In this document: positions 18,354 to 30,644 of the stretch, piece after piece
Numbering within the stretch: position 1 is the stretch's first letter
Layout of the letters: each line of letters begins with the position of its first letter
Origin: a virus
Strand: one strand, 5' to 3'
Virus record (IMG/VR): IMGVR_UViG_3300010430_000064
Coordinates: 1 to 51,456 of that record
Length of the DNA stretch: 51,456 bases
Program-made: the position numbers and the translations under genes
The notes under the pieces: model-generated
Seen by the model: only the letters and a program-made list of their open reading frames with translations
Told to the model about the DNA's origin: nothing
Databases searched by the model: none

Positions 18354-18848
18354 ATGGCAAACAAAAGTAGGCACATTCCTATTTCGGAATATTATTCTAT
18401 TTTGCAATTAGAATATATATCGTTTAGGCTTCGTGAAGCTATTTATCAAAAGAAGTACTCAGAGAAGTACAAACCTTATTGTGAAGGTAAAAAAGAAAAG
18501 ATTGAAAGTATTGCATTGCAAAATTGTTTACCTTCAATTTTTAATTCGGAAACCTCAAGAGAAAAATATTTGGGGAAGTTTTTCAATGAATTTGGATTGC
18601 CCAATTTTACCTATAAGAATGAAGATTCTAAGGAGAAAATGGGTAAGTGGGATAAGTATTATTATTTTTCTCCTGGGACTTCCGTTAAATTTAAGGTAGA
18701 AGATAGCAAGGATATCCAAATCGGGACTATCGTTTCTAATTTGATTGAGGAAGAATCAGTTGTTGTAAAAACAATTGAAAAAGAAGAATTCACGTTGGCA
18801 TATAGCAAAGTTGCCCGTATGCTCGTGGAAAGTTTGTTTAATTTTTAA
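18354..18848 (+). CDS. Unknown protein
   Basis: A 164-aa protein from ATG 18354; a GTG two codons earlier is possible. The N-terminal half is helical and basic. The C-terminal half has an SH3-like beta pattern ('GTSVKFKVEDSKDIQIGTIVSNLIEEESVVVKTI'), resembling small domains that sense or bind nucleic acid. It lies between primase and dUTPase. I do not recognise it, and the link to replication is by location only. Confidence 0.65.
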   Translation: MANKSRHIPISEYYSILQLEYISFRLREAIYQKKYSEKYKPYCEGKKEKIESIALQNCLPSIFNSETSREKYLGKFFNEFGLPNFTYKNEDSKEKMGKWDKYYYFSPGTSVKFKVEDSKDIQIGTIVSNLIEEESVVVKTIEKEEFTLAYSKVARMLVESLFNF

Positions 18849-18858
18849 TTTTTGGAAA

Positions 18859-19374
18859 ATGTTAAATGTAAAAATCAAGCCTGAAAGAATCAATTTTCAG
18901 AAACCAGTAAAAGGAAGTAAAGATGCAGCGTGTTGGGATGTTTATGCTTCCAAAATTGAAGAAAAGCCAGATGGGTTGGTGATTGTTTATTTAGGGTTCA
19001 GTACTGAAATCCCTGTTGGCTATAAGGGTGTTATCGTAGCCCGTTCCAATATCACTAAATATGGCTGGTGTATTCCTAATGCTCCTGGACAAATTGATCC
19101 AGATTTCCGCAATGAGTGGCAAGTTAGATTCCGCAGATTGCCTATGTTCCGTGAAAAAGAATTAGTGGGGAATCCACGTTGTAAAAACGGGGAAGGGGAA
19201 TTGTATTCCAAAACTCAAGATTTCTTAGAGATGCATTCGTTCCCTTATAAGCAAGGTGAAAGGGTTGCCCAAATCTACTTTGAAAAAGAAGAAGAAGTTG
19301 TTTGGCAAGAAGTTAAAGAAACCAATGATACCGAGCGTGGCTTGGGTGGCTTTGAAAGCACTGGGAGATCATAA
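18859..19374 (+). CDS. dut: dUTPase
   Basis: A 171-aa trimeric-type dUTP diphosphatase, counted from ATG 18859. An upstream in-frame start lies inside the previous gene. All five motifs are visible: I 'AACWDVYAS', II 'ARSNITK', III 'GQIDPDFRNEW', IV 'GERVAQIYF' and V 'ERGLGGFESTGR'. A ~20-aa insertion sits between III and IV (NPRCKNGEGELYSKTQDF). The enzyme hydrolyses dUTP to dUMP. That keeps uracil out of DNA and supplies the substrate of the thymidylate-synthase-like enzyme at 24454-25479. It ends the upstream transcription unit: a dyad element and terminator follow at once. Confidence 0.92.
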   Translation: MLNVKIKPERINFQKPVKGSKDAACWDVYASKIEEKPDGLVIVYLGFSTEIPVGYKGVIVARSNITKYGWCIPNAPGQIDPDFRNEWQVRFRRLPMFREKELVGNPRCKNGEGELYSKTQDFLEMHSFPYKQGERVAQIYFEKEEEVVWQEVKETNDTERGLGGFESTGRS

Positions 19375-19399: not shown

Positions 19400-19406
19400 G
19401 TGTTCT

Positions 19407-19433
19407 AGAGGGGGAAATCTCCCCTTTTATTTT
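19407..19433 (+). terminator. Intrinsic terminator after dUTPase gene
   Basis: A GGGGA (19411-19415) / TCCCC (19420-19424) stem with a 4-nt loop, extendable by A-T and G-T pairs, is followed by TTTTATTTTG. The T-tract overlaps the TTTG box of the promoter that follows, so terminator and promoter share bases. Confidence 0.8.
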
Positions 19434-19502: not shown

Positions 19503-20477
19503 ATGGGCGTAAGCGTAAAAGATGTATTGAAAAGAAAATACAAGAAACTGAAAGATGATGAGATCATCGATATGTTATCAACTGAGTTGAAAGAAGAAGA
19601 ACGTGAAGTTCTTTTGGAACTTGCTAAGAAAAGGAAAATCATTAATGATATTCCGGAATCTACTGAGGAAGTTGAAGAAATTCCTTATGAAAAACCTGAC
19701 GCTAAATTGGTGAAAAAGGCTGTGAAAATTTTTGATGATTTTGCCGAAAATCAGGAAACTGATCTTTACGGTAAGGCAGCGGAGATCATTAAAGATCGTG
19801 AAATTTCTGAACTTTCTAAGCATGAAGTTGAAGCGATTATTGCTTTGAAACCTGCTACAAAACGTAAAAAGGCTCCAGCAAAGGCAAAAACTGAAAAACC
19901 TGAAAAAGCGGAGAAAAGTGAAAAGGCTGCTAAATCCGGAAAGGGAAAAGGCAAGGAGAAAGAAAAGGTTGAAGAGCCTAAAGCTGAAGAAAAAGTAGAA
20001 AAGCCTGAAAAAACGGAAAAGAAAGAAAAAGCTGTTTCGTTTAAAGCCTTTAAGGATCTTGCCATGAAAGCGGAAAACGTGAACGATTTTTATGAAGCCG
20101 TTAAGGAAATGAAAGATGTTCCTAAGAAAACTGTCGATAAGTTTTATAAGAAGTACGGTCAGGATGGTAAATTGGCGGAGTTTGAAGCCCTTAAAGTTTT
20201 CTATGATGAAACTATGGAAAAGAAAGAAAAGGCTAAAACAAGCAGCAAGCGTAAGCCATTTGTGGAGCTTGATGAATCTGCTGAGGTTAAAGGTTTGAAA
20301 CTTGGTTCAAAAGTTTCTTTCAAAGCTCACCACCTTTCTAAAAAAGCAGGTGAACAAATTAAGGGTAAAGTTACCCGTATCATCATTGCTAATCGTGATA
20401 GCAAGGAGTACATCAAAATTGAAACCAAAAATGATGGTGAATTCCACAAGAGAGCGAATTCTGTAGAAATATTATAA
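19503..20477 (+). CDS. K/E-rich protein with C-terminal KOW/SH3-like domain
   Basis: A 324-aa protein, unassigned. The N-terminal ~115 residues are helical (VLKRKYKKLKDDEIIDMLS). Residues about 120-180 are a low-complexity Lys/Glu/Pro/Ala linker (repeated KPEKAEK/EKPEKTEK), a second helical block follows, and the last ~65 residues look like a small beta-barrel with KOW/SH3-like spacing ('LKLGSKVSFKAHHLSKKAGEQ', 'GKVTRIIIANRD'). It has its own strong promoter, so it may be abundant early. Similar charged linkers occur in the GT fusion protein and SSB. A DNA- or RNA-binding scaffold is a reasonable guess. Confidence 0.75.
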   Translation: MGVSVKDVLKRKYKKLKDDEIIDMLSTELKEEEREVLLELAKKRKIINDIPESTEEVEEIPYEKPDAKLVKKAVKIFDDFAENQETDLYGKAAEIIKDREISELSKHEVEAIIALKPATKRKKAPAKAKTEKPEKAEKSEKAAKSGKGKGKEKEKVEEPKAEEKVEKPEKTEKKEKAVSFKAFKDLAMKAENVNDFYEAVKEMKDVPKKTVDKFYKKYGQDGKLAEFEALKVFYDETMEKKEKAKTSSKRKPFVELDESAEVKGLKLGSKVSFKAHHLSKKAGEQIKGKVTRIIIANRDSKEYIKIETKNDGEFHKRANSVEIL

Positions 20478-20486
20478 AAAGTTTCT

Positions 20487-21548
20487 ATGTATAATAATCG
20501 TATTGTCATTGATTTAGATGACACAATATCCGTTACATTTGATAGGGACTGGGAAAATTCAACCCCAGTCCTTCCTGTCATTGGAAAAATTAATCAACTG
20601 TATGATTTAGGTTGGGAGATTTGCATTGTTACTGCAAGGGGTCAATTAAGTTGTAAAGGAGATTCAAAAAAAGCCGATGATAAATACCGTACTCAAATTG
20701 AAACTTGGCTCAAGAAACACGGAGTCAAATACACTTCTTTATCATTTGAGAAAGTATTAGCCACATATTATGTTGATGATAAATCATTGTCACCTGAGGA
20801 TTTCACAAAATTGAATGTTGTGGGATTACAGGGGGGATTGTCTGGCGCCAAAATTGAAAAGGTGGGGGATAAGGTTTACAAGACACATAAAAACTCTCTT
20901 CAGGCTGTTAAATGGTATTCCATAATTGAAAACTATGATATTCGTATTCCTAAAATACATAGTATTATTGGGGATACTATTTGCATGGAATATATAGAGG
21001 ATTGCCCAATAAAGCAACCCCATTTCCCTAGCCTTACAAAAGCCATTGATATTTTTTCTGGGATTAAGGTGAAAGGGGTTCCGTTTGATAATTATATTGA
21101 GCGTATCCATAAGCATGCGGAATATCATGGTGAGTTTTCTGAGATAGTTGACGAATTGGTTTTACATTCAAAATTTTATGAGGAGTTTTCTTCATTTTGT
21201 CATGGGGATTTTTCTATTGATAACATTTTAATCGATAGGAAAGGTTCCCATTATTTGATTGACCCAATTTATGAAGAAGATTCATGGAGTTCATGGCTTT
21301 TGGATGTTTCTAAATTGGCTCATTCTTATAGAAGGTATGATAAAGTTGATACCCTTTGGAATATTTATGAGCATTATAGGCATAAGGTAGACTGGAATCA
21401 TCTTAAACTATTAGAAATAACTCAATGGATCAGGGTGCTAAAATACCTTAAAGACCAGAGGGAGATAAACAGATTTAGAAACACAATAGACGTTATGATG
21501 TATGAATATTTTGGTAGAAATAGAAAACCTAAAACTAAATGGTTCTAA
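20487..21548 (+). CDS. HAD phosphatase fused to APH/choline-kinase-like kinase
   Basis: A 353-aa two-domain protein. Residues 1-110 are a HAD phosphatase of the short capsule-biosynthesis type: motif I 'IDLDDTIS' (about residues 8-15), motif II 'VTARGQ' and motif III 'YYVDDKS'. Residues about 115-340 resemble aminoglycoside/choline kinases: 'CHGDFSIDNILID' (Brenner-type HxDxxxxN catalytic loop, about 238-250) and 'YLIDPI' (metal-binding DxD-like site). One polypeptide could thus both phosphorylate and dephosphorylate small metabolites. A cytidylyltransferase overlaps it by 47 nt, so together they suggest a route to an NDP-activated alcohol or sugar. Substrates are unknown. Confidence 0.82.
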   Translation: MYNNRIVIDLDDTISVTFDRDWENSTPVLPVIGKINQLYDLGWEICIVTARGQLSCKGDSKKADDKYRTQIETWLKKHGVKYTSLSFEKVLATYYVDDKSLSPEDFTKLNVVGLQGGLSGAKIEKVGDKVYKTHKNSLQAVKWYSIIENYDIRIPKIHSIIGDTICMEYIEDCPIKQPHFPSLTKAIDIFSGIKVKGVPFDNYIERIHKHAEYHGEFSEIVDELVLHSKFYEEFSSFCHGDFSIDNILIDRKGSHYLIDPIYEEDSWSSWLLDVSKLAHSYRRYDKVDTLWNIYEHYRHKVDWNHLKLLEITQWIRVLKYLKDQREINRFRNTIDVMMYEYFGRNRKPKTKWF

Positions 21549-21939
21549 AATAGGCTTCACTGCAAGCTCTTTTGATTTGATGCATCCTGGACATATCGCA
21601 ATGTTATCAGAAGCAAAATCAAAATGTGATTACTTGATAGTGGGGTTGTTGACAGACCCAACAATTTCTAGGTACGGTTCAAAAAATAAGCCTGTCCAAA
21701 CTACTTTTGAAAGGTTCATTCAGGCTCAAGCTTTAGGCTGTGTTGATTTCATAATCCCATTTGATACCGAAGAAGATTTGGAGCAAATGTTGAAATTGAT
21801 AATGCCTGACATTCGGTTCGTTGGTGAGGAGTATAAAGATAAAGATCACACGGGTAAAAATATCGATGGGATTGAAATCTTTTACAATAAGCGAAAGCAT
21901 AATTATAGTTCTTCAGAATTAAGGGGGAGGTTAAAATGA
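21502..21939 (+). CDS. Cytidylyltransferase-like nucleotidyltransferase
   Basis: A 145-aa enzyme of the TagD/GCT and RfaE/HldE C-domain superfamily. It has 'SSFDLMHPGHI' (about residues 22-32; the HxGH signature is HPGH), 'VGLLTDP', 'PVQTTFERFI' and the C-terminal 'SSSELRGR' that replaces the usual ISSTxIR. Such enzymes join CTP (or ATP) to a phosphorylated alcohol or sugar and release pyrophosphate. It overlaps the kinase gene by 47 nt and the next gene by 4 nt (ATGA), so it is clearly part of the cassette. The product could be a CDP-alcohol or nucleotide sugar for the glycosyltransferase that follows. Confidence 0.85.
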   Translation: MNILVEIENLKLNGSKIGFTASSFDLMHPGHIAMLSEAKSKCDYLIVGLLTDPTISRYGSKNKPVQTTFERFIQAQALGCVDFIIPFDTEEDLEQMLKLIMPDIRFVGEEYKDKDHTGKNIDGIEIFYNKRKHNYSSSELRGRLK

Positions 21940-24449
21940 AAAGATATAAAATAGCATATATGGTGCATCGTGGGGATACCAATGGAGGATTCCCACAGCA
22001 CACGGAAACTATTATCCATGCCTTAAAGGAATTAGGGCATCAGGTTAAATTCTTCTATCTGGATTATTGCGTTGGGGATAAAGCTTCTTTTATGGCTAAG
22101 AAAGTAGAACTTTTCCAGAATGGAGAGCTGATGCGTCAGGGTCATGAATTGCAAATCACCAAAGGGATAGGGACAGGGGAGTTTTACGATTCTGAAAAGG
22201 GTTGGTTTTGTCCAGTAACTCCATATAAAAATATGGATGATAAAAAGAAGCTGAAAGCAGAGTTGGAAGAATACGACGCTGTATTTTGGCATACTCCATT
22301 TTGGTTCAAACAAAAGCCTACATTAATGGATACGGATTGGCCAATGTTATTGGATTTGGAAAACCCAGTAAATATTGGAATGGTTCACGATGCTAATTTA
22401 AGGGCAAATGGGGCGTGGCAGTATTTTATAAGCAAATACTTTGACAAAATAATTACAGTCCATTTTGCTTCCTACAATTCAGCCTCAGTGCTACCTGTAA
22501 AACGTACCTTGATATTCAATCCTCAGGATTTATCAAAAGTGGATGAATCCCATACTAATTTCAAGAATATCAAGAAAACGGGGAAGATATTCTCACTCCA
22601 GAATTGGAAGGGTAGCAAGCATGTTGATGATTTGATTCGTGCAGTACCTTACTTTTCAAAGAAGGTGAAAACAGTCGTTGCAGGGGATGGGATTGAAGCC
22701 CGTTATATGTTTGGCTCCAAGGAAAAGATGAAACCTCAGTATTATTGTACTAAGGCTAAGGATCCGGATTTGCCTGAAAAATTAGAGGGTAAATTGACAA
22801 TTGCTGAAAGGGCTCAGGAAACTGGACGATTTGAAAAATTGTTTTGGCTTGATTCAGATAATCGTGATAAACAAATGTCTGAAGCTGCTTTCTTTATTGA
22901 TACAGCTTGGTATAGTGTGAATAAAGAATTGGGAAGCCACTTTTCTAGAACGTTAATTGAAGCCATGATGGCAGGTTGTGTACCTATCGCCAGAAACTTT
23001 GGATTAAGTGATAATGCGGAAGGGTTGGGTGAGTTATTTAAATCCAATATAAATTACATAATGATCCCCCATGATGCAACCCCTGCTGAATTCGCTGAAA
23101 TTGTTAACAATGCGTTCAAAATGGACAAGAAAGAGTACAAGCGTATTGTAAAAAACAATTATAAACTCTTGGAAAATTTTTGTATGCTTAATGTAGCAAA
23201 GCAATATATCAAGTTAATAGAAGATAAAAAGACTGGATTCTTTGATAAATATGAAGTTGGTGAACCGACTGAGGAGTTTATCAAAAAGGCTGAATTGCAA
23301 TGGTTCGGTACTGGAGATAAAAGGACTTTTAACTTCAAAAAAGAAGAAAGCATGGTTGAAGAAACCCCAGAGGATAAAAAGCCTAAAAAAGAAAAGGCTG
23401 AAAAACCTAAAAATGAAGAGGGCAAAAAGGAAAAGAAGTCAAAGTCCCCAAAACCAAAAGGGAAATGTGAGTTCACCCCTAATGAGAATTTCAAATATTA
23501 TTTCTATTGGATTAGTGAGCGAATGAAAATATTCTGGGAACGGAATAAGGGTGAGGAAGCTCCTTGGACTGAGGATAAGATTTTGAATGATCATAAATTT
23601 ACCAACGTTTATCGCTGCTTGGATCGTACAAGCCAATATTTGATAAAGCATATTATCAACGATACGAAGAAACGTTCCAAAGAAGAATTGTTTTGGAGAA
23701 TATTATTATTCAAACATTTCAATTCTCCTGATACTTGGATAGCCTTAGAAAAGAAATTCGGGGATATTACCTTAGAAACTAAGGTGAAGAAAATTATTAA
23801 GTTCCTTGAAAAGTACAAGAATGAAGGGAATACCATTTACAGTAATGCTTATATGATGACAGCTTCCTTTATGAAGAAGCCAGAATTCATGAAAAAGTAT
23901 AAAATGGGGGATTCAAGGAGTAAGCATGAAGCCTATCTTAAAATGCTTTGGAATGTCTTTATTGAGGAAGGGCTTGCAAAGAAAATTATTAAAAGTAAAT
24001 CTTTGGAAGAGGTACAAGGTAAATTTAAGGAGGTTATTACTATTGGTGATTTCTTAGCGATGCAATATACCATTGATATCAATTACAGTAAGTTGATTGA
24101 TTTTAGTGAAAACGATTTTATCGTTGCAGGTCCTGGGGCTATACGTGGAATTGACCGTACATTCGATATTGAGAGTGCTCCAGATTATCAAAAGATCATC
24201 AAGTGGGTTCACAAGAACTTTGATAAGCTGGCTAACGAATACGGGTATAAATTTAAGCCCCTCCCAAAACGTGCCTTGACTTTAATTGATTTGCAGAATT
24301 GCTTCTGTGAAACGGATAAATATTTGAGAGGGCGTGGTATCGATAATCCTAAAAAGGAAGTCGGTGGAAAACGCATCAAACAAGTATTCACTCAAAACAC
24401 AGATAAAATTGAATATGTACTTCCCGAGAAGTGGGAAATAAAATTGTAA
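21936..24449 (+). CDS. Glycosyltransferase fused to DNA-base hypermodification domain
   Basis: An 837-aa fusion. Residues 1-440 look like a GT-B (GT4-like) glycosyltransferase: an N-terminal Rossmann half, and a C-terminal donor half with 'SRTLIEAMMAGCVPIA' (about 336-351), the usual donor-site Glu motif. Residues about 470-510 are a K/E/P-rich linker. Residues about 511-815 match the family annotated as putative DNA base hypermodification protein (5-hmdU kinase helical domain / thymine pyrophosphorylase-like): 'ERMKIFWERN', 'APWTEDKIL', 'FTNVYRCLDRTSQY', 'IGDFLAMQ', 'AGPGAIRGIDRTF' and 'LIDLQNCFCETDKY'. I infer that the protein acts on a hydroxymethyl-pyrimidine in DNA and transfers a group made by the neighbouring kinase and cytidylyltransferase. 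The biochemical order is not shown by sequence. Confidence 0.87.
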   Translation: MKRYKIAYMVHRGDTNGGFPQHTETIIHALKELGHQVKFFYLDYCVGDKASFMAKKVELFQNGELMRQGHELQITKGIGTGEFYDSEKGWFCPVTPYKNMDDKKKLKAELEEYDAVFWHTPFWFKQKPTLMDTDWPMLLDLENPVNIGMVHDANLRANGAWQYFISKYFDKIITVHFASYNSASVLPVKRTLIFNPQDLSKVDESHTNFKNIKKTGKIFSLQNWKGSKHVDDLIRAVPYFSKKVKTVVAGDGIEARYMFGSKEKMKPQYYCTKAKDPDLPEKLEGKLTIAERAQETGRFEKLFWLDSDNRDKQMSEAAFFIDTAWYSVNKELGSHFSRTLIEAMMAGCVPIARNFGLSDNAEGLGELFKSNINYIMIPHDATPAEFAEIVNNAFKMDKKEYKRIVKNNYKLLENFCMLNVAKQYIKLIEDKKTGFFDKYEVGEPTEEFIKKAELQWFGTGDKRTFNFKKEESMVEETPEDKKPKKEKAEKPKNEEGKKEKKSKSPKPKGKCEFTPNENFKYYFYWISERMKIFWERNKGEEAPWTEDKILNDHKFTNVYRCLDRTSQYLIKHIINDTKKRSKEELFWRILLFKHFNSPDTWIALEKKFGDITLETKVKKIIKFLEKYKNEGNTIYSNAYMMTASFMKKPEFMKKYKMGDSRSKHEAYLKMLWNVFIEEGLAKKIIKSKSLEEVQGKFKEVITIGDFLAMQYTIDINYSKLIDFSENDFIVAGPGAIRGIDRTFDIESAPDYQKIIKWVHKNFDKLANEYGYKFKPLPKRALTLIDLQNCFCETDKYLRGRGIDNPKKEVGGKRIKQVFTQNTDKIEYVLPEKWEIKL

Positions 24450-24453
24450 TTAT

Positions 24454-25479
24454 ATGTATATTTTTGAAAACTTGAATTCGGCTTTAGTTGGGATGTGTTC
24501 TAACTTACTGGAGTATGGGGAAACAAGGGAAACAAGGGGGCATCATTGCGTTGAGATACCTTATCCCGTTTTAATCTGTATTAACAACCCGACTGACAGG
24601 TATGTGACTATCCCTGAAAGAAAATGGAATAAGGTCTTGCCGTTTGCGGAAAGCCTTTGGTTGGCGTTGGGGTTAAATGATTTGGATGAATTGCCAGGAA
24701 ATTATGTGAAGAATTTGTATAATTTTTCAGATAATGGTAGAACGTGGCGTGCAGGTTATGGTCCGAGAATGAGATACTTTAGTGGGCATGGTTCTGATTA
24801 TGATATTAGTAAACGTGATGAGGCTAAAGTTTACTCTGGGGATATTAACCATACTGACCAGTTGAAGTTTGTTATTGATACTTTAAATAGGGATATCAAT
24901 AGCCGACAAGCTATCATTACAATCCATGACCCTGCAAAGGATGACTTTGATCGTGATGGTGGGCTAAAGGTTACAAAAGACCAACCTTGCACACGTAGCA
25001 TCCATTTCCAAGTAAATACCAAGGGGGAATTGGATTGCATCGTTGACATCCGTTCTAACGATGTTTTGTGGGGATTCTCAGCGGTTAACGTCATTAACTT
25101 TGCTATCATGCAAGAATACGTTGCTAATATTATGGGGCTGCCTATTGGTAAATATTATCATTTTGCCCATAATTTCCATTATTATGAAGATTTTGAAAGT
25201 AGAGTAGTTGAGCTGAGAGATGTTGGGTTTTCTGACCCTAATTACCATAAAGAAAGTGTTAAGTTCCAATATAAGGATCCGATTGGGGACCTTGAGAACT
25301 TTGATTTCCTATTGGATTTATTGTTTGATTATGAGAAATCACTTCGTGAGGGATATTCGTTGCCTTGTGATTTAGGTAATGATATGTTCAATGACTGGGC
25401 TAAAGTGTTCTATAACTATTGGACTAAGCAGCCAGTGTATTTTGAAAATCCACATTTAAATAAATTGTTTAATATTTAA
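24454..25479 (+). CDS. Thymidylate synthase / dUMP hydroxymethylase homologue
   Basis: A 341-aa protein, longer than the usual ~265 aa. Key residues of the TS fold are present: nucleophile Cys179 in 'DQPCTRSIHF', 'RSNDVLWGFSAVN' (Arg200, Ser201, Asp203, Asn212), and 'FHYYE', where His242 and Tyr244 fit the HxY pair. The conserved Asn rather than Asp suggests dUMP rather than dCMP. It could make dTMP or 5-hydroxymethyl-dUMP; sequence alone cannot decide. Its place directly after a DNA-base hypermodification protein and near a dNMP kinase favours a modified base. One extra residue occurs between Gly207 and Asn212 relative to canonical TS. Confidence 0.85.
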   Translation: MYIFENLNSALVGMCSNLLEYGETRETRGHHCVEIPYPVLICINNPTDRYVTIPERKWNKVLPFAESLWLALGLNDLDELPGNYVKNLYNFSDNGRTWRAGYGPRMRYFSGHGSDYDISKRDEAKVYSGDINHTDQLKFVIDTLNRDINSRQAIITIHDPAKDDFDRDGGLKVTKDQPCTRSIHFQVNTKGELDCIVDIRSNDVLWGFSAVNVINFAIMQEYVANIMGLPIGKYYHFAHNFHYYEDFESRVVELRDVGFSDPNYHKESVKFQYKDPIGDLENFDFLLDLLFDYEKSLREGYSLPCDLGNDMFNDWAKVFYNYWTKQPVYFENPHLNKLFNI

Positions 25480-25486
25480 TTCGTAA

Positions 25487-26158
25487 ATGGCATTAAATGA
25501 CTATCGATATAAGTATATTTATGCAACATTTAATTTAGTGAATGGTAAATTTTATGTCGGTAGCCATATGTCCAATAAAGATCCTAATTCTGATAAATAC
25601 CTTGGCTCTGGTGTTAGGATTAAATACGCCATAAGGAAATATGGTAGGGTTAATTTCAAAAGGGAAATTATTGAATTTTACCACGGAGAAGATATTGAAG
25701 AATTTAGGGATTTAGAAACTTATTGGATAAATTCTTTAGAAGCCGTAACATTAGGGTATAATCTAAAAGAATCAGCTAATTCCCCTTATACTGAAGGTAA
25801 AAGTGTTGGGGATAAAATAGCAAAAACATTGAGGGGTGTCCCAAAATCAGAATCCCATAAACGGAACCTTAGTAAAAGTAAACAAGGTTCAAAGCCATGG
25901 AATTTAGGGGTCCCATGTAGGGAAGAAGTGAAAAAGAAGATACAAGCCACTTCTAAGAAAAGGGTCATCCCTAGGGAACATATTGAGAAAATGCATAAAG
26001 CTGTTACAGGTGTTCCGAAGAGTAAAAGGTTCAAGAAAATTATATCTGATTCTTGGAAGAATAGGGAGGAAATAAAATGCCCTCATTGTGGGTTAAAAAG
26101 TAAAAGTTTAGGTAACATGAATCGTTACCATTTTAATAATTGTAAATCAAAATCGTAA
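25487..26158 (+). CDS. GIY-YIG homing endonuclease with NUMOD-like motifs
   Basis: A 223-aa free-standing endonuclease. The N-terminal GIY-YIG module reads 'YIYATFNLVNGKFYVGSH' (variant GIY as YIY, YIG as YVG), with catalytic Arg in 'RIKYAIRKYG' and Glu in 'LETYWINS'. The middle holds NUMOD3-like repeats ('KSESHKRNLSKSKQG', 'VPKSKRFKKIISDSW'). The C-terminus has a CPHCG...HFNNC zinc finger. It probably cuts a site in a related phage and spreads itself. It sits between the TS homologue and the HD hydrolase without disrupting either, so it is a recent-looking insertion into the cassette. Confidence 0.88.
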   Translation: MALNDYRYKYIYATFNLVNGKFYVGSHMSNKDPNSDKYLGSGVRIKYAIRKYGRVNFKREIIEFYHGEDIEEFRDLETYWINSLEAVTLGYNLKESANSPYTEGKSVGDKIAKTLRGVPKSESHKRNLSKSKQGSKPWNLGVPCREEVKKKIQATSKKRVIPREHIEKMHKAVTGVPKSKRFKKIISDSWKNREEIKCPHCGLKSKSLGNMNRYHFNNCKSKS

Positions 26159-26162
26159 AATT

Positions 26163-26678
26163 ATGCTAAGCATTGGTTATTATCGTAAAATGAAAAGGGT
26201 TAAAAGGCTCGGGCTATCATTCATCCATAGGGAGTATTCGCTATTGGAGCACCAATATATGGTAGGTATGTTGTTTAAGTATTTTGCATCAAAGGAAAAT
26301 GTCCCTTATGATATTCACGTTTGGGATTTAGTTCTTCACCACGATGCATTGGAAGTCGAAACAACAGATTTAATTTCAACCGTGAAAAAACTTTCCAAGA
26401 AAACTCAAGAAGCTTGGGAAGTCATTGAGGAGGAAGTTATCAACAAACATTTCCAGTTAGAAAAATACAGTGATAAAAGATTTAAGGAAGGCATGACACC
26501 CCTCCAGCATAAGCTGTTTAAAGCTTGTGATTATCTTGACTTGTGGATTTTTATCAAGGAAGAAGTAGCCATCGGAAACAAATCAAAAGATATTTTGGAA
26601 ATCCTAGGGCGGTGTGACGAAATGATAGGCACGGATTTCCTACATATCCGTAAATTCATGGAGGGATTTAAATGCTAA
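26163..26678 (+). CDS. HD-domain nucleotide phosphohydrolase (YfbR-like)
   Basis: A 171-aa protein with the HD signature: His in 'LLEHQYMVG' (about residue 31), His-Asp in 'LHHDALEVETTD' (about 59-60) with following Glu, and the distal Asp in 'ACDYLDLW' (about 122-125). It resembles YfbR/HDDC-type 5'-nucleotidases acting on deoxynucleoside monophosphates. In a modification cassette it could remove an unwanted canonical nucleotide, for example a dNMP competing with the modified one. The leader carries 'AATCGTAAA'. Its stop overlaps the dNMP kinase start by 7 nt. The exact substrate is inference. Confidence 0.8.
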   Translation: MLSIGYYRKMKRVKRLGLSFIHREYSLLEHQYMVGMLFKYFASKENVPYDIHVWDLVLHHDALEVETTDLISTVKKLSKKTQEAWEVIEEEVINKHFQLEKYSDKRFKEGMTPLQHKLFKACDYLDLWIFIKEEVAIGNKSKDILEILGRCDEMIGTDFLHIRKFMEGFKC

Positions 26679-27301
26679 ATGTATGGGTATATTTAGGAGT
26701 AAATGGGTCTGGAAAAGACTTTCAGGCTAAATTGAAATCTGAGGAGTTAAAGGTTTTACCTTTTGATTTTAGTGATGGAGTTCGGGAATACACGTTTGCT
26801 TTCCTGGGTTGGACTCCCCCCAATAAAGATGATTATGAGGCTTGGAAATCAGGTCAATCAACTATGTTTATGCCAGAGGGGCTGAGTGCCTATTCCATAA
26901 AAATGCGCAAGGGGCGTGAGTTCTTAGATAATGTTGGCAAAAAGATGAGGGATTTTGACCCTGATTTTTGGGCAAAACATACCGTAAGTAAAGCCACTGA
27001 ATATTATCAACAGGGGGTGGAGAATATTATCTTTTCTTCTTGTAGGTATATAAATGAAGCAAAAGCAATTTTAGATTTCGTTTATAGTGCAGGTGGGGAT
27101 GATGCAAATGTTAATTTCATATTCTGTGATTACCAATCAACGAAATATGATGACACTTACAGGGAATATCAAGAATTAGCCTTAATCCTTAGAGATATGG
27201 GGGCTGGTGACCTTGAGAAAGTTAACGAAAAAATTTATTATTTAATTGCCAATTATGAAAAAGTTGCTCAAGTTTTTAGAAGCGAATCGGATAGAGCATA
27301 A
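26672..27301 (+). CDS. Deoxynucleoside monophosphate kinase
   Basis: A 209-aa P-loop kinase with N-terminal 'GVNGSGKDF' (Walker A with SGKD, as in T4 gp1-type dNMP kinases). 'MRKGREFLDNVGKKMRDFDPDFW' (about residues 70-92) is the region that in this family binds substrate and precedes 'FW'. Phage dNMP kinases are broad and accept hydroxymethylated monophosphates. Here it would raise the TS-homologue product to the diphosphate. It lies in the same operon, and the next gene (Pol III alpha) starts 47 nt before its end. Confidence 0.82.
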   Translation: MLNVWVYLGVNGSGKDFQAKLKSEELKVLPFDFSDGVREYTFAFLGWTPPNKDDYEAWKSGQSTMFMPEGLSAYSIKMRKGREFLDNVGKKMRDFDPDFWAKHTVSKATEYYQQGVENIIFSSCRYINEAKAILDFVYSAGGDDANVNFIFCDYQSTKYDDTYREYQELALILRDMGAGDLEKVNEKIYYLIANYEKVAQVFRSESDRA

Positions 27302-30300
27302 ACAGCATAACAAGAAGATGGTGATTATCGGTGGGGAGAAATTTGAACTGATAAAACCAGACGATGATGGGAAGATTTTCACCCCTTCTTTTACACTGAT
27401 GGCTGATTCAACTAAGGCTGAAAATTATGTGTTTTCATTTGGTGGCAATTACTACTTTACACCCGAAGGCACGGAAGATGACCCCAAGCTTAACAACCTA
27501 CGCTATTACGGGAAATGTTCTGAAAAACAAAAGAATAAATCCTTCTTAGGTGTTAGGGGTGGATTTGAGATCCTTAACGGCTCAGGGCAATATAAAGATT
27601 GGGTTAAGAAAGCTAAATTTTTAGGTCTTGAAACTTTAGGTATTTGTGAGAAAAATACTTTGGCAGGTGCCTTGAAGTTCCAGAGTGCCTGTAAAAGTGG
27701 TGGAATTGAATCTATTATTGGTGAAACTGTTACTGTATTCCGGAAATCAGAAGATTTAAGGTATGATTTGAAATTATACGTTAAAAATGAAAAGGGGTAT
27801 CGGAATCTCTTACTTATAAATAAAAAAATCAATGTTGATGAATTGTCATTTATAAAGGAAGAGGATCTATTCAAAATGTTGGATGGGTTATACATTGTCC
27901 TTGACCCAAAATCATTGCCATATGAAAAGGTATTCCCAATTGATCTTGATAATGATGTGTTTTACCAAATTGACCCTGTAATATGGGAAGACAATGAAGT
28001 TGATAAAACTTATTTGGAAAACCTAAAGCAATATGTGCTTGAAAAAAGATTTAAGCCAATTGCAATTTGGGATGCTTTCTATTTAGAAAAGGATCATAAT
28101 CACATCAAACAAATCCTAAACGGGATAGCGAAGAAATTCGAATATATTTCAAAGGATCAATGGTTCAAGACTTGGGGGGAATATGAAAGCGGTTGCTCAG
28201 ATATTTTCTCTGAAGAGCGTATTGGGATACTGAAGAAAGCCAAGAAGAATTTGGAATTAGTTGCGAGCGTTTGCAAGAATTTTAATATACCTACTGGGGA
28301 ACGTCATTTGCCTAAATACAAAATGACCAAAAAAGAGGCTAAAAAGTATAAAACAAATAAGGATCTTTTCTGGGGATTGGTTGAAGATGGGTTGAAGCGT
28401 AAAACCCCAAAAGGTAAAAAGAAAGAATACCTAAAGCGTGTTGAAATAGAATGGGATGTTATTGAATATGGGGATGTAATGGATTATTTCTTAATTCTAT
28501 ATGATATCATCAAGTGGTGCCGCAAAAAGAATATACTCGTGGGTATTGGTCGTGGTTCTGCTGGAGGTTCTTTAGTATCTTATCTATTGGATATTACTCA
28601 GCTTGACCCAATTGAATACGGGTTACTTTTTGAGAGATTTTTGAATAAAGGTCGTATTGAAAAGTCACTACCCGATATTGATGTGGATTTCCCTGCTAAG
28701 AAACGTGGGCTGATTAAAGCCTATATTGAGAAACGATACGGGCATGATCAGGTTTGTTCAGTAGGCACTTACACCGCATTACAGTTGAGGGCTGCCTTAA
28801 AGGATATTGCGAGGCAGTATTCAATCCCGTTTGATGAAACAAATAGGGTTACTGCTTATCTTGAAGGTTGCAAATCACTGGAAGATATTTTCCGGAAATC
28901 AGCTTCGGATAAATTTGTTTACACTTTTGTTAGCAAATATCCGTATGTGATAAACGATATCCCATTAGTTTTAGGGCAACCAAAAGCTAAATCAATCCAC
29001 GCTTGTGCCATGATGGTATTCCCGAAAGAGAAAACCATGTACGAGTGGGCTCCTGTTAGGGAACAGGACGGACAAATAGTAAGTGAGTGGGAAGGTAATG
29101 AGTTGGATGAAGCAGGATTCCTTAAAGAGGATATTTTGGGGGTTAAACAGTTAGATAAATATGAGGATATTTTGGAATCCATCAAAAAGGTGGAAGGCAA
29201 AGAAATTGACTTGTATTCATTAAAGCTTAATCACGATAAATGCTATAAGTATTTCCAGAAGGGGTGGAATGGTGATGTATTCCACTTTGGTAGTCGGGGA
29301 TTGACAGGGTACTGTAAGGAATTACTCCCTGAAGATATTAATGATTTGATTGCTGGAATCTCCCTTTATCGTCCTGGAGCGATGGAGAATAACTTCCATA
29401 ACGAATATGTCCTACGTAAAAATGGGGATCGTGAGGTAGAATATTTTGTCGGTTCTGAGGAAATCCTTAAAGATACTTATGGGGTATTTGTTTATCAGGA
29501 GCAGATTATGAAGCTTTGTCAGGTTTTAGGTGGATTATCCCTTGTAGAAGCGGATGATGTACGTAAAGCGATGGTAAAGAAAAAGTATGAAGCACTCCAG
29601 CAGTATAAAGTTAGATTTATCCCACATTATGTGAAAGAATTTGGGGTATCTAAACAATATGCCGAAGGAGTTTGGGAGGCTATTGATAAAGCTGCAACTT
29701 ATCTGTTCAATAAATCCCATGCATCTGCTTATTCCATTACAGGATACTGGGGGCAATACCTCAAAGTATTTTACCCTGTACACTATTGGAAAACAGCTAT
29801 TAATTATGCTGATGAAGATCAATTCCCTCATTACATTAATGAAGTCCATAAAACAGGTGATATAGAAATCAAGCCACCTGATATAAATGAATCCGGAGAA
29901 GGGGTAACTGCTGATTTCAAAGCAAATAAAATTTACTGGTCAATAGGTGGTATCAAAAATGTTGGGGGAACAGCCCTTCATCAAATAATTGAAGACCGAA
30001 AAAAGAGCGGTGAATACTTTGATTTGAAGGAATTCTATTCACGCCATAAGTTTACTGGGACTAAGGTAAACAAGCGTACAATCGAATGCTTAATTTTATC
30101 TGGTGCTTTTGATCAGGTTTGTGATATTGATTTACCTAAAAGGAGATTTAAATTAATTGAAGAATTTAGGGAGATTGGTAAGATCAAAATTGATGATGAG
30201 AAAGATCTTTTCTCTGCCAATAAATCTATGTTAAAAGATAACCAATGGTGGGTATTCCAACAGAAGTTGTTATCCGGAATTGCTTATTTTGATTATAAGG

Positions 30301-30644
30301 ATCTTTGTGGTAGGTTAGAAGTGGAAGGGTATAAATTCATGAACCCAGAAAAGTTCATGAGGGAAAACTCAGCTGGCAAAGATGCCAGAATTGGGGGGTA
30401 CATTTCCGAAATTAAGCTACGTAAGAATCAGAAAGGGCAATGGGCTTCCATAGTTCTGGAAAGTAATTACGAATTCATTAGGGTTCAGATTTGGCCAGAG
30501 CAATTCTCTAGGTTAGAGGGTAGGATTCACTCTAAATCTAAGGCTGTTATTGTTTTAAATGGCAAAATTAAGTTTGATGAAAAGTATTCTAAGGAAAATA
30601 ATCTACAAACCACCGAAGATACTGAATTCTTAGTTTTAGAATAG
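27255..30644 (+). CDS. DNA polymerase III alpha subunit (C-family)
   Basis: A 1129-aa polymerase. The start is taken at ATG 27255; a TTG at 27246 is possible. Catalytic core motifs are 'GIGRGSAGGSLVSYL' (about residue 430) and 'LPDIDVDF' (about 472-479, the catalytic Asp pair). Further on are 'SLYRPGAME', 'YGVFVYQEQIMKL' and 'NKSHASAYS'. C-terminal residues about 1040-1129 look like an OB fold. The N-terminal PHP region (about 100-190) is degenerate: 'RGGFEILNGSGQ' and 'GICEKNTLAG' replace the His-rich metal ligands, so intrinsic PHP exonuclease is probably lost. Proofreading may come from the DEDDh protein at 13651-14310. It is somewhat shorter than the ~1160-aa E. coli enzyme. Confidence 0.93.
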   Translation: MKKLLKFLEANRIEHKQHNKKMVIIGGEKFELIKPDDDGKIFTPSFTLMADSTKAENYVFSFGGNYYFTPEGTEDDPKLNNLRYYGKCSEKQKNKSFLGVRGGFEILNGSGQYKDWVKKAKFLGLETLGICEKNTLAGALKFQSACKSGGIESIIGETVTVFRKSEDLRYDLKLYVKNEKGYRNLLLINKKINVDELSFIKEEDLFKMLDGLYIVLDPKSLPYEKVFPIDLDNDVFYQIDPVIWEDNEVDKTYLENLKQYVLEKRFKPIAIWDAFYLEKDHNHIKQILNGIAKKFEYISKDQWFKTWGEYESGCSDIFSEERIGILKKAKKNLELVASVCKNFNIPTGERHLPKYKMTKKEAKKYKTNKDLFWGLVEDGLKRKTPKGKKKEYLKRVEIEWDVIEYGDVMDYFLILYDIIKWCRKKNILVGIGRGSAGGSLVSYLLDITQLDPIEYGLLFERFLNKGRIEKSLPDIDVDFPAKKRGLIKAYIEKRYGHDQVCSVGTYTALQLRAALKDIARQYSIPFDETNRVTAYLEGCKSLEDIFRKSASDKFVYTFVSKYPYVINDIPLVLGQPKAKSIHACAMMVFPKEKTMYEWAPVREQDGQIVSEWEGNELDEAGFLKEDILGVKQLDKYEDILESIKKVEGKEIDLYSLKLNHDKCYKYFQKGWNGDVFHFGSRGLTGYCKELLPEDINDLIAGISLYRPGAMENNFHNEYVLRKNGDREVEYFVGSEEILKDTYGVFVYQEQIMKLCQVLGGLSLVEADDVRKAMVKKKYEALQQYKVRFIPHYVKEFGVSKQYAEGVWEAIDKAATYLFNKSHASAYSITGYWGQYLKVFYPVHYWKTAINYADEDQFPHYINEVHKTGDIEIKPPDINESGEGVTADFKANKIYWSIGGIKNVGGTALHQIIEDRKKSGEYFDLKEFYSRHKFTGTKVNKRTIECLILSGAFDQVCDIDLPKRRFKLIEEFREIGKIKIDDEKDLFSANKSMLKDNQWWVFQQKLLSGIAYFDYKDLCGRLEVEGYKFMNPEKFMRENSAGKDARIGGYISEIKLRKNQKGQWASIVLESNYEFIRVQIWPEQFSRLEGRIHSKSKAVIVLNGKIKFDEKYSKENNLQTTEDTEFLVLE

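Follow-up and report, generated by a model that had tools for sequence, protein, structure and literature searches.

The window analysed here, a 51,456-nt stretch of viral DNA (positions 1 to 51,456 of IMG/VR virus record IMGVR_UViG_3300010430_000064), is 100% identical to positions 41,488-92,943 of a 108,320-bp IMG/VR contig (L008; loci are given below by such L numbers). It carries a compact gene run that the original prediction had described as a DNA-base hypermodification cassette with its own donor-synthesis genes (Table 1). All six open reading frames (ORFs) placed in this run were recovered at the same coordinates on the + strand, with intergenic gaps of -47 to +9 nt across the cassette and a gene for PolC-type DNA polymerase directly downstream, and the sole good terminator-like stem nearby lies upstream of the cassette (19406-19429). 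The six enzymes stood up to inspection, and a seventh gene had been overlooked: a GIY-YIG/NUMOD3 homing endonuclease between the thymidylate synthase (TS) homologue and the HD protein. It is a mobile insert outside the pathway, and a relative of it comes after the HD gene in L114. We consider it probable, judging from sequence comparisons, that 5-hydroxymethyluracil (hmU) in the DNA of this phage is glycosylated by a fusion of a glycosyltransferase (GT) with an HMUDK_hel (HEL) domain, using a nucleoside diphosphate (NDP)-sugar that the HAD-APH protein and a nucleotidyltransferase (NT) make from a host sugar phosphate.

Table 1 Genes and domains of the cassette and its flanks (positions in the window).
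Feature	Position	Strand	Evidence
dUTPase	18775..19374	+	PF00692 1e-11, PHROG 135 2e-28; true start may be within listed ORF
HAD phosphatase (residues 1-118) fused to APH-type kinase (119-353)	20487..21548	+	PHROG 1238, TIGR01689, PDB 1xpj, motifs
HldE/GCT-type nucleotidyltransferase (NT)	21502..21939	+	PF01467 (CTP_transf_like) 5e-12, TIGR02199 (HldE adenylyltransferase domain) 9e-24
GT4-type (GT-B) glycosyltransferase domain, residues 1-470 of 837-aa protein	21936..23345	+	PF00534 (Glycos_transf_1) 3e-7
Charged KKEK-rich linker, GT to HEL	23346..23450	+	sequence
HMUDK_hel domain (HEL), HhH DNA-glycosylase-like fold	23436..24449	+	PF18723 1e-85, AlphaFold2 model
TS-family enzyme, proposed dUMP 5-hydroxymethylase	24454..25479	+	PF00303 2e-20, PHROG 5131 1e-58
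GIY-YIG/NUMOD3 homing endonuclease	25487..26158	+	PHROG 314 2e-30, NUMOD3 2e-5
YfbR-like HD 5'-deoxynucleotidase	26163..26678	+	PF12917 3e-15, above cut-off
Deoxynucleoside monophosphate (dNMP) kinase, proposed hydroxymethyl-dUMP kinase	26672..27301	+	PHROG 139 4e-13; no Pfam match
PolC-type DNA polymerase	27246..30644	+	ORF; true start downstream of listed TTG

The C-terminal half of the 837-aa protein ties the cassette to DNA. Searching the HEL profile against PDB sequences gave chance-level matches only, so that a comparison of folds was needed. An AlphaFold2 model built from 18 sequences (pLDDT 90) had as its best structural match PUGT, the 5-phosphomethyl-dU glycinyltransferase of Pseudomonas phage PaMx11 (8z2n; Z 11.5 over 232 residues), followed by DUF2419 queuine salvage enzymes (Z 9.8-10.7) and HhH DNA glycosylases (Z 6-9). 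For a helical protein, Z scores of this size are suggestive of a relationship, and the fold assignment is convincing because the structural match agrees with the Pfam family and the gene context. The domain that the original prediction had assigned to DNA-base hypermodification therefore falls with a phage enzyme of that kind and with DNA glycosylases. All 18 invariant HEL positions are kept in the window. For scanning, an 8-sequence HEL alignment proved too divergent and a 2-sequence alignment was used. The neighbours of HEL include 5-hydroxymethyl-dU (5-hmdU) DNA kinase 2 (L111, L113, L114, L115), TAGT glycosyltransferases (22/79 loci) and the HAD-APH module; since hmU in DNA is common to all of these contexts, HEL may be the half that binds hmU-DNA and flips out the base.

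Within the TS family, Asn goes with dUMP and Asp with dCMP as substrate, as established for TS and T4 gp42. The TS homologue in the window, whose best PDB match was the CMP hydroxymethylase MilA (2e-17), keeps the active-site Cys and has the dUMP-type Asn, as do the hmU phages Goe26, LuckyBarnes and Vibrio D506. We compared this determinant across 111 TS homologues from the fetched loci, among which the window enters twice (L110, L189); T4 D179 was placed from its motif read by eye (GFRND) and from a larger alignment, a 10-sequence alignment having put the Asp one column off. Among HEL loci, 50 of the 52 other calls were Asn and two were Asp, with one unread, whereas HAD-APH loci without HEL had Asp in 55/55, as in T4 gp42. 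Clustering at 70% identity left 40 Asn and 2 Asp with HEL against 0 Asn and 13 Asp without it, and the TS was of the Asn type in the window and L197, where HEL and HAD-APH occur together. Because these loci come from pattern scans and share ancestry, the split is a strong association and not proof. The Asn in the window and this split together lead us to predict that the modified base is most likely hmU, so that of the T and C first named as candidates, T is favoured. The same genes could instead act on cytosine, the TS making hydroxymethyl-dCMP and the GT glycosylating 5-hydroxymethylcytosine (hmC) as in T-even phages, and most HAD-APH cassettes do accompany Asp-type, T4 gp42-like hydroxymethylases. 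Given the Asn of the window TS and the fusion of its GT to a domain that keeps company with Asn-type enzymes, we regard this as quite unlikely.

The HEL-TS-HD core of the window recurs in L111, L113 and L114, where HEL is 47-49% identical; PolC follows this core in L111 and L114, and L113 has a dNMP kinase relative in the same place as the window. Upstream of HEL, these three loci draw on a set made up of HMUD2 (5-hmdU DNA kinase 2), ADDT, GATase_6 and amidoligase or GNAT genes, with some members missing from some loci; this is the known kinase/amino-acid route. The slot that HAD-APH, NT and GT fill in the window is thus occupied by HMUD2 in L111, L113, L114 and L115 (in the last of which HEL and HMUD2 lie at the contig end) and by ADDT in L111, L113 and L114; L112 has an FkbM methyltransferase together with a TAGT. 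It appears that, with hmU as the common basis, the decoration route was exchanged in the window phage. Canonical thymidine hypermodification, in which a 5-hmdU DNA kinase and amino-acid transfer would act and HEL would be the transferase on the phosphorylated base, might be expected here, as HEL takes its name from 5-hmdU DNA kinases and the route is present in relatives of the core. HMUD2 was not found in the window or in its 108-kb contig, which is possibly incomplete; the search was aimed at HMUD2 rather than at other kinase clades, and as a positive control it recovered the expected genes in the contigs of L111 and L114. Neither ADDT, TAGT nor other kinase-route genes were found in the 108-kb contig, and we hold this route to be highly improbable for the window. 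HMUD2 searches of the L196, L197, L155 and L112 contigs also found nothing. As for L111, L113 and L114 themselves, new amino-acid decorations are possibly specified by their genes for HMUD2, ADDT, a glutamine amidotransferase-like protein and an amidoligase or GNAT.

The N-terminal half of the 837-aa protein is a candidate transferase. Alone, it had no matches among PDB sequences, and single-protein scans with it or with the whole protein recovered only the same phage, so that alignments were required. Its PF00534 match exceeds the cut-off, and a structure model of modest confidence built from four sequences (pLDDT 60, pTM 0.66) gave Z scores of up to 19.5 with GT4 enzymes and of 17.0 with T4 alpha-glucosyltransferase (AGT), which acts on DNA and whose crystal structure includes a 13-mer containing HMU. 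Stand-alone orthologues are 59% identical in L196, where the GT immediately precedes a stand-alone HEL and then PolC, and 54% identical in L197, where the order is HEL - HAD-APH - NT - GT with TS further along. Because GT and HEL are separate in these two loci, we read the window protein as a fusion of two genes; no further fused copy was found among the loci scanned. The HAD-APH frame of L196 (L196:6989-7837) stops early compared with its relatives, at 282 aa, by a frameshift or sequencing error. Another HEL phage, L155 (1929-9955), has a distant GT of the window's kind, an Asn-type TS whose 686-aa gene appears to contain an intein, and an ORF whose likeness to UDP-galactopyranose mutase was read from its sequence alone; this gene set possibly places galactofuranose on hmU.

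The sugar donor would come from the first two genes of the cassette. The HAD part matches PHROG 1238 (1e-19), TIGR01689 EcbF/BcbF (4e-16, under its cut-off) and, with profile A2 against the PDB, 1xpj (8e-21), and the APH part is sub-threshold in Pfam, its HGDxxxxN and IDP motifs being kept in at least 95% of 61 aligned family members. The next enzyme had been called a cytidylyltransferase; it is better named a nucleotidyltransferase of the HldE/GCT type, which could use CTP or another nucleotide. It resembles cytidylyltransferases for glycerol-3-phosphate and ethanolamine-phosphate as well, and matches HldE more strongly. In the ADP-heptose route a kinase, a HAD phosphatase and an NT follow the same logic. 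We propose that HAD-APH is a sugar kinase and phosphatase yielding a sugar 1-phosphate, and that NT is an NDP-sugar synthase. The attached group, left before as an alcohol or a sugar, is most likely a sugar because the transferase domain is of the GT4 type. A CDP-alcohol donor of the glycerol, ethanolamine or choline type, from which the phospho-alcohol is transferred, or a phosphate-linked sugar as in phage SP-15, seems unlikely to us: the cytidylyltransferase neighbours of NT, the membership of choline kinases in the APH fold and the phosphate-linked sugar that SP-15 carries on thymine derivatives (PMC5977210) would fit it, but the transferase resembles an NDP-sugar enzyme, and a sugar 1-phosphate route suits both the HAD part and the closer match to HldE.

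Scanning viral sequences for HAD-APH returned at least 188 relatives, of which the best 80 loci were analysed, many on short contigs. Among these 80, NT was adjacent in 77, a recognised GT was present in 71 and a TS homologue in 54, and a C5-cytosine-methyltransferase-like gene lay within 7 kb in 64; collapsed to 25 clusters at 70% identity, NT occurred in 24, GT in 22 and TS in 15. The order dNMP kinase - HAD-APH - NT - GT - TS - polymerase was seen in Agathobaculum phages AB434P2/P3, which have an Asp-type TS, and in a faecal phage scaffold, and a polymerase III-like ORF likewise lies downstream of the cassettes of L003 and L019. The module therefore stands beside glycosyltransferases and hydroxymethylases in many other phages, and together with the HEL fold and the TS Asn this makes DNA-base hypermodification with a phage-made donor the best-supported reading, as first proposed. 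The GT and donor genes might instead modify the host surface or the virion and lie beside nucleotide genes by chance, given that cyanophages carry related nucleotidyltransferases in clusters interpreted as surface-polysaccharide genes (PMC7824862). Several observations make this very unlikely: the GT shares a polypeptide with a DNA-modification domain, PolC is immediately downstream, and NTs of the same family without HAD-APH had a TS nearby in 0/74 loci. Moreover, a pattern scan covering 84,980 genomes of bacteria and archaea gave only two HAD-APH relatives, both on contigs with a TS-GT-HAD-APH-NT cassette and phage-like genes.

A related arrangement is found in Serratia phage LC53, whose separate HAD and APH parts, next to its arabinose-5-phosphate isomerase, are matched by those of the window (HAD 1e-24, APH 1e-11); gene modules of RB69 and NP that are related to LC53's have been linked to arabinosylated cytosine (PMC6024577, PMC13390438). 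Apart from the window, a widespread cassette (L031, L032, L038, L042, L200-L268 and others) combines a T4 gp42-like Asp-type hydroxymethylase, GT, HAD-APH and NT with a C5-cytosine-methyltransferase-like gene; a dCMP-deaminase-like gene is frequently present too. Together these genes are probably an undescribed hmC glycosylation system.

From gene content, homology, motifs, synteny, fusion and predicted fold, we infer all functions of the cassette and read it as a thymine-replacing, sugar-decorating DNA modification system. In the proposed sequence of events, dUTPase would provide dUMP and prevent uracil from entering DNA, and the TS homologue, going by its family and its Asn, would convert dUMP to 5-hydroxymethyl-dUMP. 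The HD protein may clear a competing dNMP, probably dTMP, while the dNMP kinase and a host kinase would make hydroxymethyl-dUTP for incorporation into DNA by the phage polymerase. For the donor, the APH domain would phosphorylate a host sugar phosphate at its anomeric position and the HAD domain strip the other phosphate, after which NT could form the NDP-sugar, as in the logic of ADP-heptose synthesis. Finally, as its fusion, fold and gene neighbourhoods suggest, HEL would bind DNA and flip out hmU, and the GT4 domain would move the sugar onto the hydroxymethyl oxygen of the flipped base.

Several points weigh against this proposal. The GT-HEL fusion was seen only in the window, HAD-APH is combined with HEL in three lineages only (window, L196, L197), and no TS was seen in the available sequence of L196. 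The GT model is of modest confidence, as noted above, and the first glutamate of the GT4 EX7E motif is not conserved in this GT subfamily. Neither the window nor the 108-kb contig gave a match to a SIS sugar isomerase, so that a sugar phosphate drawn from the host is the presumed substrate. In addition, the locus sets are biased toward the query families. With these points considered, we still lean, somewhat less firmly than for the glycosylation itself, towards a broader picture in which the phage replaces thymine, or part of it, with hmU bearing a self-made sugar by means of one polypeptide whose DNA-glycosylase-like domain presents the base to a GT4 domain, HEL is a general hmU-DNA docking module joined either to the kinase/amino-acid route or to GTs, and HAD-APH/NT feeds hmC or hmU glycosylation in many uncultivated phages.

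The accessory genes recur with the same cores. The dUTPase gene also adjoins HEL cores in L111, L112, L114 and L115, and a YfbR-like HD gene is retained next to the hmU TS in L111, L112, L113, L114 and L119. We also considered the HD protein as DatZ, prompted by a weak PHROG match to dATP triphosphohydrolase and by a PurZ/PurA-like gene in the longer contig, outside the window (L008:5858-6976; adenylosuccinate synthetase, PHROG 1211 7e-56). We do not favour this reading, because the catalytic Asp of the PurA motif GDEGKG is retained in the PurA-like protein, whose PDB matches are adenylosuccinate synthetases, and because the HD protein is YfbR-like and retained with the hmU core. 2-Aminoadenine DNA in the window phage is not supported, though still conceivable. 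Relatives of the PurA-like protein occur in Vibrio phages Va1/pv27 and in mycobacteriophages, and pv27 (L016) and its relatives carry both the closest PurA-like gene and an NT 54% identical to that of the window. Just upstream of the cassette (19503-20477) lies a gene for a 324-aa lysine/glutamate-rich protein with no convincing family.

If the proposal is right, the window encodes a new DNA decoration together with a new way of making one. The Asn/Asp and HEL rules make the modified base predictable from sequence and testable, and the presence of the HAD-APH/NT module in at least 25 sequence clusters, mostly metagenomic, predicts a large and chemically unexplored set of sugar-decorated phage genomes. 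Such genomes are of interest for restriction, type IV defence and the evasion of CRISPR, and the cassette enzymes are potentially usable to label hmU or hmC. Our literature searches found no paper on the HAD-APH/NT cassette and no description of glycosylated (base J-like) hmU in phages. Within the gene set, for which the original prediction knew of no exact counterpart, the donor module is recurrent and not unique to this phage, and the GT-HEL fusion and its pairing with hmU are novel. New relative to known phage pyrimidine hypermodification are thus the architecture of the GT-HEL enzyme, its hmU pairing and the widespread donor module, although GT-HEL pairs were possibly mentioned already by Iyer 2013 and Lee 2018 and 2022.

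Several known systems come close. With the thymidine hypermodification of M6, ViI, SP10 and phiW-14 the window shares the dUMP-type TS homologue, a predicted 5-hmdU handle in DNA, HMUDK_hel and the replication-gene neighbourhood; that system uses a 5-hmdU DNA kinase and amino-acid or alkylamine transfer, as do sister contigs with the window's core, whereas the window has GT and donor genes where the kinase and ADDT would stand. The glucosyl-hmC system of T-even phages (T4 gp42 with alpha/beta-GT) has in common a TS homologue and a proposed post-replicative DNA glycosyltransferase, the GT model resembling the GT-B enzyme T4 AGT, but the window TS has Asn instead of Asp, its GT is fused to HEL and its donor would be phage-made instead of host UDP-glucose. 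The arabinosyl-cytosine cassette of RB69, NP and Serratia CHI14/LC53 likewise relies on phage-encoded donor synthesis with homologous HAD and APH parts, and differs in the fold of its NT, the fusion of its domains, its isomerase and its cytosine acceptor in place of thymine. Loci with HEL, TS and TAGT, such as that of Brevibacterium phage LuckyBarnes, place HMUDK_hel next to a dUMP-type TS and glycosyltransferases, yet these are TAGT-type, HEL stands alone and donor-synthesis genes are lacking. The ADP-heptose route (GmhA, HldE kinase, GmhB HAD phosphatase, HldE nucleotidyltransferase) shares the three-enzyme logic, and the window NT is closest to the HldE domain; the window kinase, in contrast, is APH-type and fused to HAD, and its context is DNA rather than lipopolysaccharide.

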